A stretch of DNA of 64,000 nt from Halorussus rarus. Lineage in GTDB: Archaea > Halobacteriota > Halobacteria > Halobacteriales > Haladaptataceae. Both the position numbers and the translations under genes were made by a program. Position 1 is the stretch's first letter. Every line of letters begins with the position of its first letter. The stretch spans positions 124,001-188,000 of the forward strand of contig NZ_QPMJ01000002.1 of the NCBI RefSeq assembly GCF_003369835.1. Reading direction: 5' to 3'. Below the pieces are notes generated by a model. That model saw nothing but the letters and a program-made list of their open reading frames with translations. It was not told the origin of the DNA and did no database searches. Of this stretch, positions 37,377 through 43,278 are shown piece after piece.

Positions 37377-38552
37377 TCAGGGCGCGAACACGGCCCGGAC
37401 GCAGCCGTCCTCCTTCTCCCGGAACATCTCGTAGCCGCGGGGCGCCTCTTCGAGCGAGAACTCGTGGGTCGCCAGGTACGAGGGGTCCATCTCGCCCTCG
37501 GCGACGTGGTCGAGCAGTTCCGGCACGTACCGCTGGCCGTGCTGCTGGGCGGTCCGGACGGTCAGCCCCTTGTTCATCGCGATGCCCAGCGGGAACTTGT
37601 CCATCACGCCGTAGACCCCCAGGATGGACAGCGTGCCGCCCTTCCGGCAGGCCACCATCGCCTGCCGGAGCGCCTCGCCCCGGTCGGTCTGGAGCCGCAT
37701 CGCCTGCTTGGCTCTGTCGTAGGCGTGCTGGACGCCGGTGCCGTGGGCCTCCATCCCGACCGCGTCGATGCAGGCGTCGGGGCCCCGGCCGCCGGTCAGC
37801 GATTTCAGCTCGTCGACGACGCTGTCGACCGCGGTGTAGTCGATGGTCACCGAGCCGGCCTCCTCGCGGGCCAGCCGGAGTCGCTCGGGGAACCGGTCGA
37901 TGCCGACGACCTGCTCGGCGCCCATCAGGGCGGCGCTCTGCTGTGCCATCAGCCCGACGCCGCCGCAGCCCCAGACAGCGACGGTATCCCCCTCCTCGAT
38001 GTCGCAGAAGTCCGCGCCCATGTAGCCGGTCGGCCAGGCGTCAGAGGCGAACAGCGCCTGCTCGTCGCTCAGGTCGTCGGGCACCCGGAAGCAGTTGGAC
38101 TCGGCGTGGGGAACCCGGACGTACTCGGCGTGCGAGCCGGCGTAGCCGCCGAAAGCGTGGGTGTAGCCGTAGATTCCCGCGGTCGGGTAGCCCAGGATCG
38201 GCTCCTGGAGCTCCGGGTTCGGGTTCGTGTTGTCGCAGAGCGACCACTCGTCGGCTCGGCAGTGGCCGCAGTTGCCACAGCCCACGAACGACGGGACGAC
38301 CACGCGGTCGCCGGCCTCGACCGACTCGACCTTCCGGCCGGTCTCGGCGACCGTCCCCATGAACTCGTGGCCGATGACGTCGCCCTCGCGCATCGTCGGC
38401 AGGTAGCCGTCGATGAAGTGGAGGTCCGACCCGCAGGTCGTCGTCAGCCCGACCTCCAGCACCGCGTCGCGCGGGCTGACGATCTCGGGGTCCGGTACCG
38501 TCTCGACACGGAGGTCCTCGACGCCCTCCCAGCAGAGCGCCCTCACACCCAA
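37377..38552 (-). CDS. Zinc-dependent alcohol/formaldehyde dehydrogenase (MDR family)
   Basis: 391 aa. Catalytic zinc ligands C40, H62 and E63 (GHE); structural zinc C92, C95, C98, C106; Rossmann motif VAVWGCGGVGLMAQ. Resembles the formaldehyde-dehydrogenase-like subgroup (IDAVGMEAHG, long insert). Its start lies inside the end of the SRPBCC gene (10-nt overlap), giving a two-gene operon. Substrate unknown. Confidence 0.88.
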   Translation of the reverse strand: MGVRALCWEGVEDLRVETVPDPEIVSPRDAVLEVGLTTTCGSDLHFIDGYLPTMREGDVIGHEFMGTVAETGRKVESVEAGDRVVVPSFVGCGNCGHCRADEWSLCDNTNPNPELQEPILGYPTAGIYGYTHAFGGYAGSHAEYVRVPHAESNCFRVPDDLSDEQALFASDAWPTGYMGADFCDIEEGDTVAVWGCGGVGLMAQQSAALMGAEQVVGIDRFPERLRLAREEAGSVTIDYTAVDSVVDELKSLTGGRGPDACIDAVGMEAHGTGVQHAYDRAKQAMRLQTDRGEALRQAMVACRKGGTLSILGVYGVMDKFPLGIAMNKGLTVRTAQQHGQRYVPELLDHVAEGEMDPSYLATHEFSLEEAPRGYEMFREKEDGCVRAVFAP

Positions 38553-39355
38553 TCACCCCGGCCCCGGCCGGAAGGGTTGCGTTCGAGCGTCGGGATCTCG
38601 CCCGTCTCGGCCAGGCTCTTGAACCGGTAGAGCGCCTTGCTCGCCAGCGCCTCGGGCACGACGCCCATCAGTCCCATCGCGGTCCGGCCGACCCGACCGC
38701 CGGGCGGGTCGACGCGCAGCCGCAGGGTCACCTCGGTCCCGCGGTCGCCCGGGGCCGACCGGAAGTGGACCGACCCCTCGTTCGGGACGGTCGCGTCGTC
38801 GTTCGACCGCCAGCGAAGGAGCTCGCCGGGTCGGTCCTCGACGAGTTCGGTCTCCCACCCGATCTGCCGGCCGAGCGGAGCGGCCACCGACCAGCGGTAG
38901 CGGTCCTCGCCGGCCGCCGTCACCTCGGCGAACGGCCCCATAATCTCGTCGAGTCGGTCGGCGTCCCGCCAGTAGCCGTAGAGCTCGTCGGCCGACAGCC
39001 CGACGGTGACCGACCGCTCGACCGCGGTCGGGTCGGACGGCGCTCCGGGCTCCGCGTCGGTGTCGGCGGGCTCGGTCGCCGGCGTCGGCTCACCGGCCGT
39101 GGCGGACTCGCCTCCGTCGCTGCCGTCGTCCCGGAGCTCCCGGTACAGCAGCCAGCCGCCGGCGAGCGCCAGGGCCGCGCCGCCGAGCGACCGCCGCCGG
39201 AGGCCGGCGCTCACGAGCGTCCCACCGACCGCCGCGGCGGCCAGCCGTCTGCCGCGGCTCGCGTTCGGTCTCGCGGCACGCTCCGTCCTCTCTCCCCCAG
39301 TGGTACTCTGTGGCAAACGGTGATTCCCCCACGCAGTGGTTGCGCGACTGGCCAT
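38543..39355 (-). CDS. Membrane-anchored SRPBCC (START-like) protein
   Basis: 270 aa from the ATG at 39355. N-terminal Arg/Ala-rich region with two short hydrophobic helices (RLAAAAVGGTLVSAGL; LGGAALALAGGWLLY), an acidic linker, then the ligand-binding SRPBCC domain (RSVTVGLSADELYGYWRDAD, IGWETELVEDRPGELLRWRS, GTEVTLRLRVDPPGGRVG). This pairing with a zinc dehydrogenase recurs in haloarchaea and some bacteria, usually linked to stress responses. Confidence 0.85.
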   Translation of the reverse strand: MASRATTAWGNHRLPQSTTGGERTERAARPNASRGRRLAAAAVGGTLVSAGLRRRSLGGAALALAGGWLLYRELRDDGSDGGESATAGEPTPATEPADTDAEPGAPSDPTAVERSVTVGLSADELYGYWRDADRLDEIMGPFAEVTAAGEDRYRWSVAAPLGRQIGWETELVEDRPGELLRWRSNDDATVPNEGSVHFRSAPGDRGTEVTLRLRVDPPGGRVGRTAMGLMGVVPEALASKALYRFKSLAETGEIPTLERNPSGRGRGDWV

Positions 39356-39461
39356 TGTATCTTGTGCCCGGGATCGTCGGACCGGCAACGCCAATCGGGA
39401 CGATAGCCGACTCTCCGACCAAATCCCCTTAAGGTAGAACGCCGAACCACCGCGCAGAACG

Positions 39462-39758
39462 ATGGCAGACGACACCCAGAGCGGGGACCGAACCCGCGCG
39501 CACGTCTTCGTCTCCGGCGAGGTACAGGGCGTCTACTACCGGGCCAACACCCGCGACACCGCCCGGGAGGAGGGCGTCGACGGCTGGGTCCGGAACCTCG
39601 ACGACGGCCGGGTCGAGGCGGTCTTCGAGGGGCCCGCGGACGCGGTGGAGTCGCTGGTCGAGTGGTGCCACACCGGGAGCCCCGCCGCGGACGTCGACGA
39701 CGTCGAGGTCGAGTACGGAGAGCCCGAGGACGAGGACGGCTTCCGCGTCCGGCGGTAG
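39462..39758 (+). CDS. acyP: Acylphosphatase
   Basis: 98 aa. AHVFVSGEVQGVYYRANTR with catalytic Arg27, and GWVRNLDDGRVEAVFEG with catalytic Asn45. Hydrolyses acyl phosphates. ~15 extra acidic N-terminal residues, as is common in haloarchaea. Confidence 0.93.
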   Translation: MADDTQSGDRTRAHVFVSGEVQGVYYRANTRDTAREEGVDGWVRNLDDGRVEAVFEGPADAVESLVEWCHTGSPAADVDDVEVEYGEPEDEDGFRVRR

Positions 39759-39851
39759 GTCGGAGACGCTCGGCCGGTTTCCTCGGGGACCGCACCGCCG
39801 GCGCGGACGGCACGGCTTTCCGCGTCAGTCCCGTACCGCTTCCGACCGCTC

Positions 39852-40280
39852 ATGCGCGAGAACGCGCCCGAGCTCGGCGTCGGAGTGCGAGGCGCCGACA
39901 CCGAATCGCTGCCACAGGGGGCCGCGGGGGCCGGAACCGACCCCGGTGACCAGCTGGTGCTGCGGGTCGCCGTCCCGGTCGTCAACCCGCAGTCGACCTC
40001 CGGGGACTCGATGGTGGACGGCGACGCCATCGTCGGCCGGATACCGGTCGCGAACGCCGACACGCCCTGCGCCGACGACCTGCTCGACGCGGCCGCGGTC
40101 ACCGTCCTCGAGGAGCGCGTGACGGCGTACTACCCCCGGGACGACGAGGTGGTCGCGCTCGTCCGGGAGGCGGCGACCGACGACTGGCGGTGCGAGTCGT
40201 GGGACGCCGACGGCGAGTTCGAGCTCATGTCCGGAAGAAGAGACGAGGGCGAGGCAATTCTCTGGGAGCCGGGGGAATAG
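39852..40280 (+). CDS. Hypothetical haloarchaeal protein
   Basis: 142 aa. Central VLRVAVPVVNPQSTSGDSMV and DDEVVALVREAATDDWRCES segments look beta-alpha; tail EAILWEPGE. No family recognised. Ends 20 bp before the convergent low-complexity gene. Confidence 0.55.
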   Translation: MRENAPELGVGVRGADTESLPQGAAGAGTDPGDQLVLRVAVPVVNPQSTSGDSMVDGDAIVGRIPVANADTPCADDLLDAAAVTVLEERVTAYYPRDDEVVALVREAATDDWRCESWDADGEFELMSGRRDEGEAILWEPGE

Positions 40281-40300
40281 CAACCGAGTCCGGCCGATTC

Positions 40301-41632
40301 TCAGTACGGACGACCGCTCGCGTCGCCCCGACCGCGGTCGTCCTCGCCTCGCCGGTCGAAACGGTCGCTCCCGGTCGTCCTGTTCCGGCCGACGTCACCG
40401 GACCGGGACTCGTCGACGGTGCCGGACCGGGACTGGTCGAACCCGATGTCCGGGGCCCGGCGCTGCTCCTCCGAGGTCATGCCGAAGTCCGGCTGCTCGG
40501 TCCGCTGGCTCCCGCCGGTGGACTCGTTCCCCCGGTGGTCGGGTCCGCGATTCTCGGTCGGCCGGGACTCGCCGCCTCCTGTCTCGCCGCCCCGCTGGCC
40601 GCGACTCCGCCGGTAGCCCTGGCCGTACCGCCGTCCGCCGTTGCGGCCCTGCGACTGGCGCCCCTCCGTCCGACCGCTGCCCGACTGTCGGCCCGTAGTC
40701 CGGCCGGTCGTCGGCTGTCGGTCCGAACTCCGGGAACCCCGGGTCTGCTGGCTCTGGGCCCGCTGTCCCTGGGTCTGCCGACCCTGGCTCCGGGAGGTGC
40801 GCGGCGACTGGCCGCCCGACTGGCGGTTCTCCGTCCCCTGGCTCTGCGATTGGTCGGTCTCGGTCCCGAGCTGGCTCCGCTCCTGCCAGGACTCCTGAGT
40901 GTCGCTCCGGGACAGTCGGTCGGGACCGCGCTCGGTCTGCTGCTGGGCCTGCTCCAGTCGCTGGGAGTAGGGCAGCTGGGTGTCAGTGGTCCCTCCCGCG
41001 CCCTCGTCGGTCGGCTGCTGGTGGCCCTGCTTCGGCTGCGTGGGCCCGGGCGACGGCTCCTCTGACTGCCGGCCGGACGAGTCCTGCTGGCTCTGCGAAG
41101 TTCGCTGGTGCGACGAGCCCTGCGGTTCGCCCGAGAATCGCGTTCCGCTGGACCGCTGGCCGCCGTACTGCTGGGTGCCGGTTTGTTGGGAGCCCGTTTG
41201 CTGGATGTCGGACCGCTGAGTACCGTACTGCTGGGTCCCGGGCTGCTGTTGGCCCCGGTCACCGGCCTGCTGGTGACCTCGTCCACCGGTCCGTTCCTGC
41301 TGCGAGAACTGCTGGCCGCCCTGTGGCGGCCCGGCGTGGCTCTGCGAGTGGCGCGAGTCCCCGCCGTACTCGAGCGCGTGACGGCTTCCCTGGGACGGCT
41401 GCTGGCCCGACCCCGACCGGGACTCCTGTGGCGCCCCCGCCGGAATCAGGGCCTCCTCGCCCTGCATCCGCTGTTTGACCTCCCGCTCGACTTGCTCGGG
41501 ACTCCGGTCGTCGTCCCGGCGTTGCTGGCTCTGCCGCCGCTCGTCGCGGCCTCGGCTCCCGTATCGTCGTTCTGGGTGTTGTTCCTCGCGTCGTTCCTCG
41601 CGGCCTCCCTGTCGGTATCGGTCGTGTGCCAT
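40301..41632 (-). CDS. Large low-complexity Gln/Arg/Gly/Ser-rich protein
   Basis: 443 aa. Begins MAHDRYRQGGREERREEQHP, then an acidic-basic patch and one possibly ordered helix (RSPEQVEREVKQRMQGEEAL, about 43-62). The rest is Gln/Ser/Gly/Thr/Arg low complexity with repeated TQQYG, GSQQTG and GRQSxGR units and RGG-like motifs. No hydrophobic core and no transmembrane segment. Highly unusual beside an acidic proteome. Shares Arg-rich start and RRYGSRG with the protein encoded at 32269-33018. Predicted disordered, possibly condensate- or RNA-associated (inference). Confidence 0.6.
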   Translation of the reverse strand: MAHDRYRQGGREERREEQHPERRYGSRGRDERRQSQQRRDDDRSPEQVEREVKQRMQGEEALIPAGAPQESRSGSGQQPSQGSRHALEYGGDSRHSQSHAGPPQGGQQFSQQERTGGRGHQQAGDRGQQQPGTQQYGTQRSDIQQTGSQQTGTQQYGGQRSSGTRFSGEPQGSSHQRTSQSQQDSSGRQSEEPSPGPTQPKQGHQQPTDEGAGGTTDTQLPYSQRLEQAQQQTERGPDRLSRSDTQESWQERSQLGTETDQSQSQGTENRQSGGQSPRTSRSQGRQTQGQRAQSQQTRGSRSSDRQPTTGRTTGRQSGSGRTEGRQSQGRNGGRRYGQGYRRSRGQRGGETGGGESRPTENRGPDHRGNESTGGSQRTEQPDFGMTSEEQRRAPDIGFDQSRSGTVDESRSGDVGRNRTTGSDRFDRRGEDDRGRGDASGRPY

Positions 41633-41835
41633 GGAAATCTCCCCGCCGGACTTCGTCTCGCGAGTTCCTTATCCGTGCTGGCCGGGGCGATTCAACCCCG
41701 CCGTACCGAACATCCAACCGGTCTCCGAGCGCGTATTTTCCGCTCGTTGATGAGTGGGCCGGTGCGGTCGCCGGGCGGAACGCCCCGACGCGCCCGACGA
41801 CAGGACTTAACGCGCTCCCGGTCCAACGCACGCCC

Positions 41836-43278
41836 ATGATCACGGCAGACCGGATGGCCCAGGTCGACGCGAACGCGGCCGCCCTCGGCGTGCCGCGCAA
41901 GCAGTTGATGGAGTCGAGCGGCAACGCCGTGGCCCGCGAGGTCCGCGAGGCCGCCGCCCCCGGCGCGCGGGTGGCCGTCGTCGCCGGCCGCGGGAACAAC
42001 GGCGGCGACGCCTTCGTGGCGGTCCGCTTTCTGAGCGAGTACGACACCTCCGTCCACCTGCTCGGCCGCGAGGAGACCATCGCGACCGACATCGCCAGCG
42101 AGAACTGGGACGCGCTCCGGCGGGGCGAGTACGACATCGAGACCGTCGACGACTCCAGAGACTTCGAGGTGCCCGACTGCGACGTCGTCGTCGACGCCAT
42201 GCTCGGCACCGGCGTGACGGGCGCGCTCCGCGAACCCGAGGCCACTGCCGCCGAGCGGATCAACGAATCCGACGCCACCGTCGTCGCGGTCGACGTCCCC
42301 TCCGGCGTGAACGCCGACACCGGCGAAGCAGCGGGCGCCGCGGTCGAGGCCGACCGCGTGGTCACCTTCCACGACCAGAAACCCGGCCTCGACGATCTCG
42401 ACGCCGAAGTCACCGTCGCGGACATCGGCATCCCCGCCGCGGCCGAGCGCCTCGTGGGGCCGGGCGACCTCCGGCCGGTACGGGAGGGGACCAAGGCCGA
42501 GGACGCCCGCGCCTACGTCATCGGCGGCGGCCCGTACACCGGCGCGCCGGCGCTGGCTGCCCAGGCCGCGCTCCGGACCGGCGCGGACCTCTCGTTCGTC
42601 GCGGCGCCCGACCCGGTCGCGCCCCAGATACAGGGCTACGCCGAGGACCTCATCGTCCAGTCGTACGACGGCGACCACCTCTCGCCCGAGCAGGTGCCCG
42701 ACCTCGTCGACACCGCCGAGAGCTACGACGACGTGGTCGTCATCGGGCCGGGGCTGGGCAGCGCCGACGAGACAGTCGAGGCGGCCGAGCGGTTTCTCGC
42801 GGAGTTCTCCGGCCGGGCGGTCGTCGACGCCGACGCGCTCGAAGTCGTGCCCGAGGTCGACACCGACGCGACGCTGGTCTGCACGCCCAACCGCAAGGAG
42901 CTCGCGAAGATGGGCGGTCCGGAGGTCGAGAGCGCCGACGCCCTCCGCGAGCGCGCCGACGAGATCGAGGCGTTCGCCGCCGACCTCGGCCACGTCGTGC
43001 TGGCGAAGGCGAAGGACGACGTCGTCACGGACGGCGAGCGCACCCGCGTCTCGACCGCGGGCACGCCCGGCATGAGCGTCGGCGGGACCGGCGACACGCT
43101 CGCGGGCACCACCGCCGGCCTGCTGGCGACCCACGACCCGTTCCGGTCGGCGTGCATGGCGGCGTACGCCAACGGCCGGGCGGCCGAGCTGCTGGACGAG
43201 GACAGACACGACGGGCTGCTGGCGTCGGACCTGCTCGACGCGCTTCCGCGGGCGCTGTGGGGTGGCGACGATGAGTGA
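41836..43278 (+). CDS. nnr: Bifunctional NAD(P)H-hydrate epimerase/dehydratase
   Basis: 480 aa. The N-terminal epimerase domain has AVVAGRGNNGGDAFVAVRFL and DVPSGVNADTGEAAGAAVEA; the C-terminal ADP/ATP-dependent dehydratase has GGGPYTGAPALAAQAALRTG, VIGPGLGSADE and GTPGMSVGGTGDTLAG. Repairs damaged NADHX and NADPHX. Overlaps moaC by 8 nt. Confidence 0.92.
   Translation: MITADRMAQVDANAAALGVPRKQLMESSGNAVAREVREAAAPGARVAVVAGRGNNGGDAFVAVRFLSEYDTSVHLLGREETIATDIASENWDALRRGEYDIETVDDSRDFEVPDCDVVVDAMLGTGVTGALREPEATAAERINESDATVVAVDVPSGVNADTGEAAGAAVEADRVVTFHDQKPGLDDLDAEVTVADIGIPAAAERLVGPGDLRPVREGTKAEDARAYVIGGGPYTGAPALAAQAALRTGADLSFVAAPDPVAPQIQGYAEDLIVQSYDGDHLSPEQVPDLVDTAESYDDVVVIGPGLGSADETVEAAERFLAEFSGRAVVDADALEVVPEVDTDATLVCTPNRKELAKMGGPEVESADALRERADEIEAFAADLGHVVLAKAKDDVVTDGERTRVSTAGTPGMSVGGTGDTLAGTTAGLLATHDPFRSACMAAYANGRAAELLDEDRHDGLLASDLLDALPRALWGGDDE

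Follow-up and report, generated by a model that had tools for sequence, protein, structure and literature searches.

A predicted disordered Gln/Arg-rich protein of Halorussus with conserved motifs in a fixed order

Introduction

Three described groups of low-complexity, hydrophilic proteins offer comparisons for the protein analyzed here: the hydrophilins and LEA-like proteins, the FET-type (FUS) and RGG proteins, and the yeast-type prion-like Q/N-rich domains. Cytosolic proteins of halophiles are expected to be acidic. As quoted in PMC7448490, hydrophilins are recognized in sequence by a glycine content above 6% and a hydrophilicity index above 1. Moreover, a survey of low-complexity domains reported that Q-rich domains reach a uniquely high per-residue occupancy in eukaryotes relative to archaea and bacteria (PMC11132505), so that a Q-rich protein of the sort described below is unusual in archaea.

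In this study, we analyzed a 64,000-nucleotide stretch of Halorussus rarus DNA (the window) and a Q/R-rich gene within it that an earlier note had picked out. With hydrophilins and LEA-like proteins, its product shares disorder (predicted here), high hydrophilicity, and, in all ten members of the family, glycine above 6% and a hydrophilicity index above 1; in contrast, it is Gln/Arg-rich and has no detectable homology to any Pfam family, including LEA. With FET-type (FUS) and RGG proteins, it shares a Gln/Gly/Ser/Arg-rich, predicted disordered sequence and some QQYG-type repeats, whereas RGG enrichment, homology, and an RNA-binding domain were not found and a quarter to a third of its residues are charged. 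With yeast-type prion-like domains, it shares high Gln (11–25% in the Halorussus members), but it is Asn-poor and strongly charged. The earlier note knew of no described family of this kind in archaea, and the Pfam, NCBIfam, and PHROGs profiles gave no match; the best PDB match had E=0.28, and a literature search on haloarchaeal disordered Gln-rich proteins found nothing relevant among the results listed. As judged from its sequence, this non-acidic low-complexity protein of a halophile is previously undescribed and unusual.

Results

The Q/R-rich gene, characterized through its open frame, ten homologues, dN/dS, and AlphaFold2, occupies 40301..41632 on the minus strand of the window, where the long single open frame reported earlier is indeed present: 443 codons from an ATG start (41632) to a TGA stop (40301). 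The gene is genuine and protein-coding. The start region is common to the ten homologues. In three close homologue pairs all indel lengths are divisible by 3, as are 9 of 11 in a fourth pair, and substitutions between close pairs are commonest at third codon positions. Its own frame has a dN/dS of 0.32–0.49, compared with 1.1–1.6 in four of the five alternative frames; the antisense frame that uses the same third-position bases gives 0.38–0.56, yet it carries 5–16 stops. Since dN/dS in the neighboring genes is 0.05–0.48, the constraint on the Q/R-rich gene is weaker than theirs but clear. Its GC3 is 0.85 versus 0.91–0.96 in the neighbors, and its codon usage is somewhat looser. Long opposite-strand frames at 40190–41065 and 41108–41839 might suggest that the Q/R-rich frame is the by-product of a conserved antisense gene, but these frames show a wrong GC profile and no family match, and the antisense frames of the relatives show dN/dS above 1 or many stops. 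Such an origin is vanishingly improbable, and the possibility named in the earlier note, that an opposite-strand frame is the conserved one, is contradicted by the same values.

Residue counts (Q 74, G 72, R 67, S 54, and T 34) bear out the richness in these five residues that had been described. The window protein has a pI of 10.2 and a net charge of +9 (69 K+R versus 60 D+E in 443 residues), against a median pI of 4.6 across the 28 likely genes of the window, and the proposed departure from the acidic halophile norm thus stands. All ten homologues are net positive (+6 to +35). Of the description "basic rather than acidic", the second half holds, but the protein is only mildly basic: its charges are balanced apart from a small positive surplus, and "strongly basic" would overstate them. 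Hydrophobic residues make up 10% of the window protein, and inspection of its sequence by eye revealed no Sec/Tat-like or transmembrane stretch, in agreement with the note. Across the ten members, GRAVY is −1.94 to −2.24, glycine 10.8–16.3%, glutamine 11–25%, and the charged fraction 26–37%, with 5–15 tyrosines per protein; the 60-aa segments richest in Q/N hold 7–16 charged residues.

Repeats of the TQQYG and QQTG type noted earlier were found as a degenerate array with a 15-bp period at 41150..41248 (minus strand; Tandem Repeats Finder, 6.6 copies, 66% matches), which codes for QQYG/QQTG linker repeats. In contrast, the RGG-like repeats also noted there are not enriched: RGG occurs once in the window protein, with 1.8 expected from composition, and 0–4 times in the ten members, with 0.6–1.8 expected, so that nine of the ten lie at the composition expectation and only G014 reaches P=0.04. 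The earlier note read prion-like Q-rich and RGG features as signs of RNA binding or phase separation, and these observations bear on such a role, in which a FUS/RGG-type or prion-like protein would bind RNA or DNA and form condensates. The Q/G/S/R-rich, predicted disordered sequence, the positive net charge of all ten members, and the QQYG-type repeats are in line with it, but the RGG frequencies are not, nor are the charged fraction of 0.26–0.37 and the small number of tyrosines. The members are Q-rich but not charge-depleted, so they are not prion-like in the strict sense. Moreover, no RNA-binding domain was found in six scanned members, which had no Pfam match up to E=1, and a high internal KCl concentration weakens Arg-phosphate contacts. 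Taken together, we consider this condensate-forming role decidedly unlikely.

AlphaFold2 was run on the window protein with three relatives. The mean pLDDT was 46.9, from a shallow alignment and with the reservation that a low pLDDT by itself is no proof of disorder; the composition of the window protein (10% hydrophobic, GRAVY about −2) agrees with disorder, and the protein is predicted to be almost wholly disordered. The only helices modeled in the window protein span residues 45–56 and 222–233, and both lie on conserved motifs. Helix 1 (41465..41500, minus strand; PEQVEREVKQRM, within RSPEQVEREVKQRMQGEEALIPAG) has a pLDDT of about 75–80, and V48, E49, V52, K53, G58, E60, and P64 in its region are invariant among the ten members. 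Helix 2 (40934..40969, minus strand) lies inside YSQRLEQAQQQTER, where YSxRL is kept in nine of the ten members. Between them, the ten-member alignment delimits a GGESRH box at residues 82–116 (GSRHALEYGGDSRHSQSHAGPPQGGQQFSQQERTG; 41285..41389, minus strand; G000:C2:165285-165389).

The motifs follow one another in a fixed order: N-terminus, helix 1, GGESRH box or boxes, PSPQQ, KQPHQ, helix 2, and RYG. The N-terminal consensus is MSNDxYRQGGRE and that of the helix 1 motif RSPEQVExxVKxRMQGxExxIPA; the remaining forms are GGESRH boxes 1 and 2, PSPQQ, KQPHQQP, YSxRLE, and RYG. Single members lack individual motifs: GGESRH box 1 is missing from G000 and G013, the latter having a second, degenerate box; PSPQQ is missing from G000 and YSxRLE from G007; and RYG was not seen in G013 and G016. 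G000 and G013 have a QPDFGMxxxEQRRAPDxG motif in common. The Q/S/G/R/T linkers between the motifs vary freely, and the protein length runs from 279 to 523 aa. The expectation that homology would be limited to the N-terminus was therefore only partly right: the N-terminal route did find the homologues, but several later motifs are also kept, in order. A hydrophilin-type protectant would be a disordered protein that accumulates in large amounts during desiccation, salt dilution, or stationary phase and shields other proteins through its bulk properties, its motifs mattering little. Such a role would fit the glycine content and hydrophilicity index of all ten members; a bulk protectant, however, would not require specific motifs in a fixed order or V, K, G, and P residues that never change, and we regard this role as possible but rather unlikely.

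The motifs evolve at a dN/dS of 0.12–0.27 versus 0.44–0.55 for the linkers, a contrast that is partly circular because the motifs were chosen by eye from the same alignment. When held-out conserved columns were used, motif versus linker dN/dS was 0.16 versus 0.60 in one pair and 0.37 versus 0.31 in the other. The contrast, partly circular and with a mixed held-out test, supports the presence of putative binding motifs.

Upstream of the gene, a conserved promoter-like block, GCCAGCACGGATAAG, lies 36–50 bp before the ATG (41668..41682, minus strand; aligned upstream of the ten homologues). Its GCCAGCACNNATAAG form, with few small variants, precedes the ATG by roughly 36–53 bp in 10/10 homologues. 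In G010, G013, and G014, GCCAGCAC is also found at a similar distance upstream of the convergent 142-aa ORF; CAGGACTTAA precedes nnr. We infer that the GCCAGCACNNATAAG, GCCAGCAC, and CAGGACTTAA blocks are core promoters. GCCAGCACNNATAAG was rejected as a regulon marker: its copy here is the only exact one in the window's genome, and the four further carriers that were searched likewise have one each, so a regulon is not indicated. The copy found in a second genus (G021:C1:1493020), in front of a short 70-aa ORF that is charged and very acidic, is within chance expectation.

The distribution of the gene was surveyed in 392 Halobacteriales genomes, one per species (18 Halorussus and 374 others). 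Homologues occur in 10 of the 18 Halorussus genomes, each beside nnr, with acylphosphatase on the opposite side; the proteins of G004, G016, and G007 are the same as those found by sequence in the named relatives Halorussus aquaticus, H. ruber, and H. salinisoli. An N-terminal alignment search found no homologue in the 374 non-Halorussus genomes sampled, and no relatives were found in viral contigs or plasmids. The gene thus appears, so far, to be restricted to Halorussus. Weak GGESRH-box matches outside the genus (best 4e-4 among the 392 genomes) were rejected: the eight inspected are all short, lie mostly in frames antisense to other reading frames, and lack all the other motifs.

The gene sits between acylphosphatase (39462..39758, plus strand; Pfam PF00708 and synteny) on the left and the divergent nnr, an NAD(P)HX epimerase/dehydratase (41836..43278, plus strand; Pfam YjeF_N and Carb_kinase), which adjoins it in 10/10 genomes. 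An acidic 142-aa ORF (39852..40280, plus strand) is convergent with it, with 20 bp between the two stops; this ORF has no family match, is not always co-present with the Q/R-rich gene, and is patchy, occurring in six Halorussus genomes and three of a second genus in the family. Farther left, an SRPBCC (polyketide cyclase-like) protein with a variable N-terminus (38543–39475, minus strand) adjoins acylphosphatase in 7/10 carriers within the stretches compared. None of the neighboring genes offers a pathway clue.

Among the genomes without the gene, the acylphosphatase-nnr distance is 97, 90, and 65 bp in G005, G006, and G017, respectively; in G003 and G009 the gap is occupied by other open frames, and in G001, G011, and G012 acylphosphatase lies outside the stretch compared. 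The gap (window 39759–41835), nearly empty in three species and elsewhere containing the Q/R-rich gene, the 142-aa ORF, or other genes, has the appearance of a place where genes have come and gone repeatedly. In the flanking-gene tree, the carriers form one ten-genome clade, with G005 inside it lacking the gene, plus G013. The protein tree pairs G000 with G013 (0.98), whereas the flanking-gene tree joins G013 to G017, a conflict that perhaps reflects transfer between species. Two histories are possible: the carrier clade may have gained the gene, which was then transferred to G013, or the gene may be older and have been lost several times. Its absence from 8 of the 18 species indicates that the gene is dispensable for the genus.

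Confinement to one genus, tandem repeats, fast evolution, an acylphosphatase-nnr gap left empty in three species and taken up by other genes elsewhere, and absence from G005 inside the carrier clade could all point to a young lineage-specific gene with little or no function, in which slippage during replication lengthens the low-complexity linkers. A dN/dS clearly below 1, a reading frame and an order of motifs that persist throughout the genus, and the conserved promoter-like block argue against this, and we hold such a gene to be highly improbable.

Discussion

Based on these observations, we tentatively favor, at somewhat short of an even chance, a multivalent disordered scaffold or client-shielding protectant whose conserved motifs serve as binding sites. 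This reading draws on ten syntenic homologues under purifying selection, a motif order that stays constant while length varies, the lower dN/dS of motifs than of linkers, AlphaFold2 disorder broken only by helices on conserved motifs, GRAVY of −1.94 or lower with 11–16% Gly in all ten, and the conserved promoter-like block. Against it stand the partial circularity of the motif–linker contrast with its mixed held-out test, neighboring genes that give no pathway clue, and the dispensability of the gene for the genus. The cytosolic location, the multivalent binding, and the scaffold or protectant role are all inferred from sequence and models.

As such a scaffold or protectant, the gene product would reside in the cytosol, lack structure over nearly its whole length, and be highly hydrophilic. 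Its binding sites would be the YRQGGRE tag, two helices, one or two GGESRH boxes, PSPQQ, KQPHQ, and RYG, in fixed order, with the fast-changing Q/S/G/R linkers as spacers. Helix 1, with its hydrophobic stripe V48-V52-M56, and the boxes may hold partner proteins or nucleic acid, while the polar, charge-balanced linkers would provide solubility without the usual acidic coat. A more specific proposal, which we consider unlikely, is a disordered hub that, while lacking an acidic coat, assembles condensates or keeps a complex intact in molar KCl, the motifs acting as stickers and the Gln/Ser/Gly/Arg stretches as spacers.

A conserved, non-acidic, Gln/Arg-rich disordered protein would represent another way of staying usable in molar KCl, and it offers a natural system for testing the action of linear motifs and disordered spacers under high-salt conditions. 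Moreover, the locus is a clean instance in which a gene for a predicted disordered protein, restricted to one genus, can be compared with empty sites in sister species.
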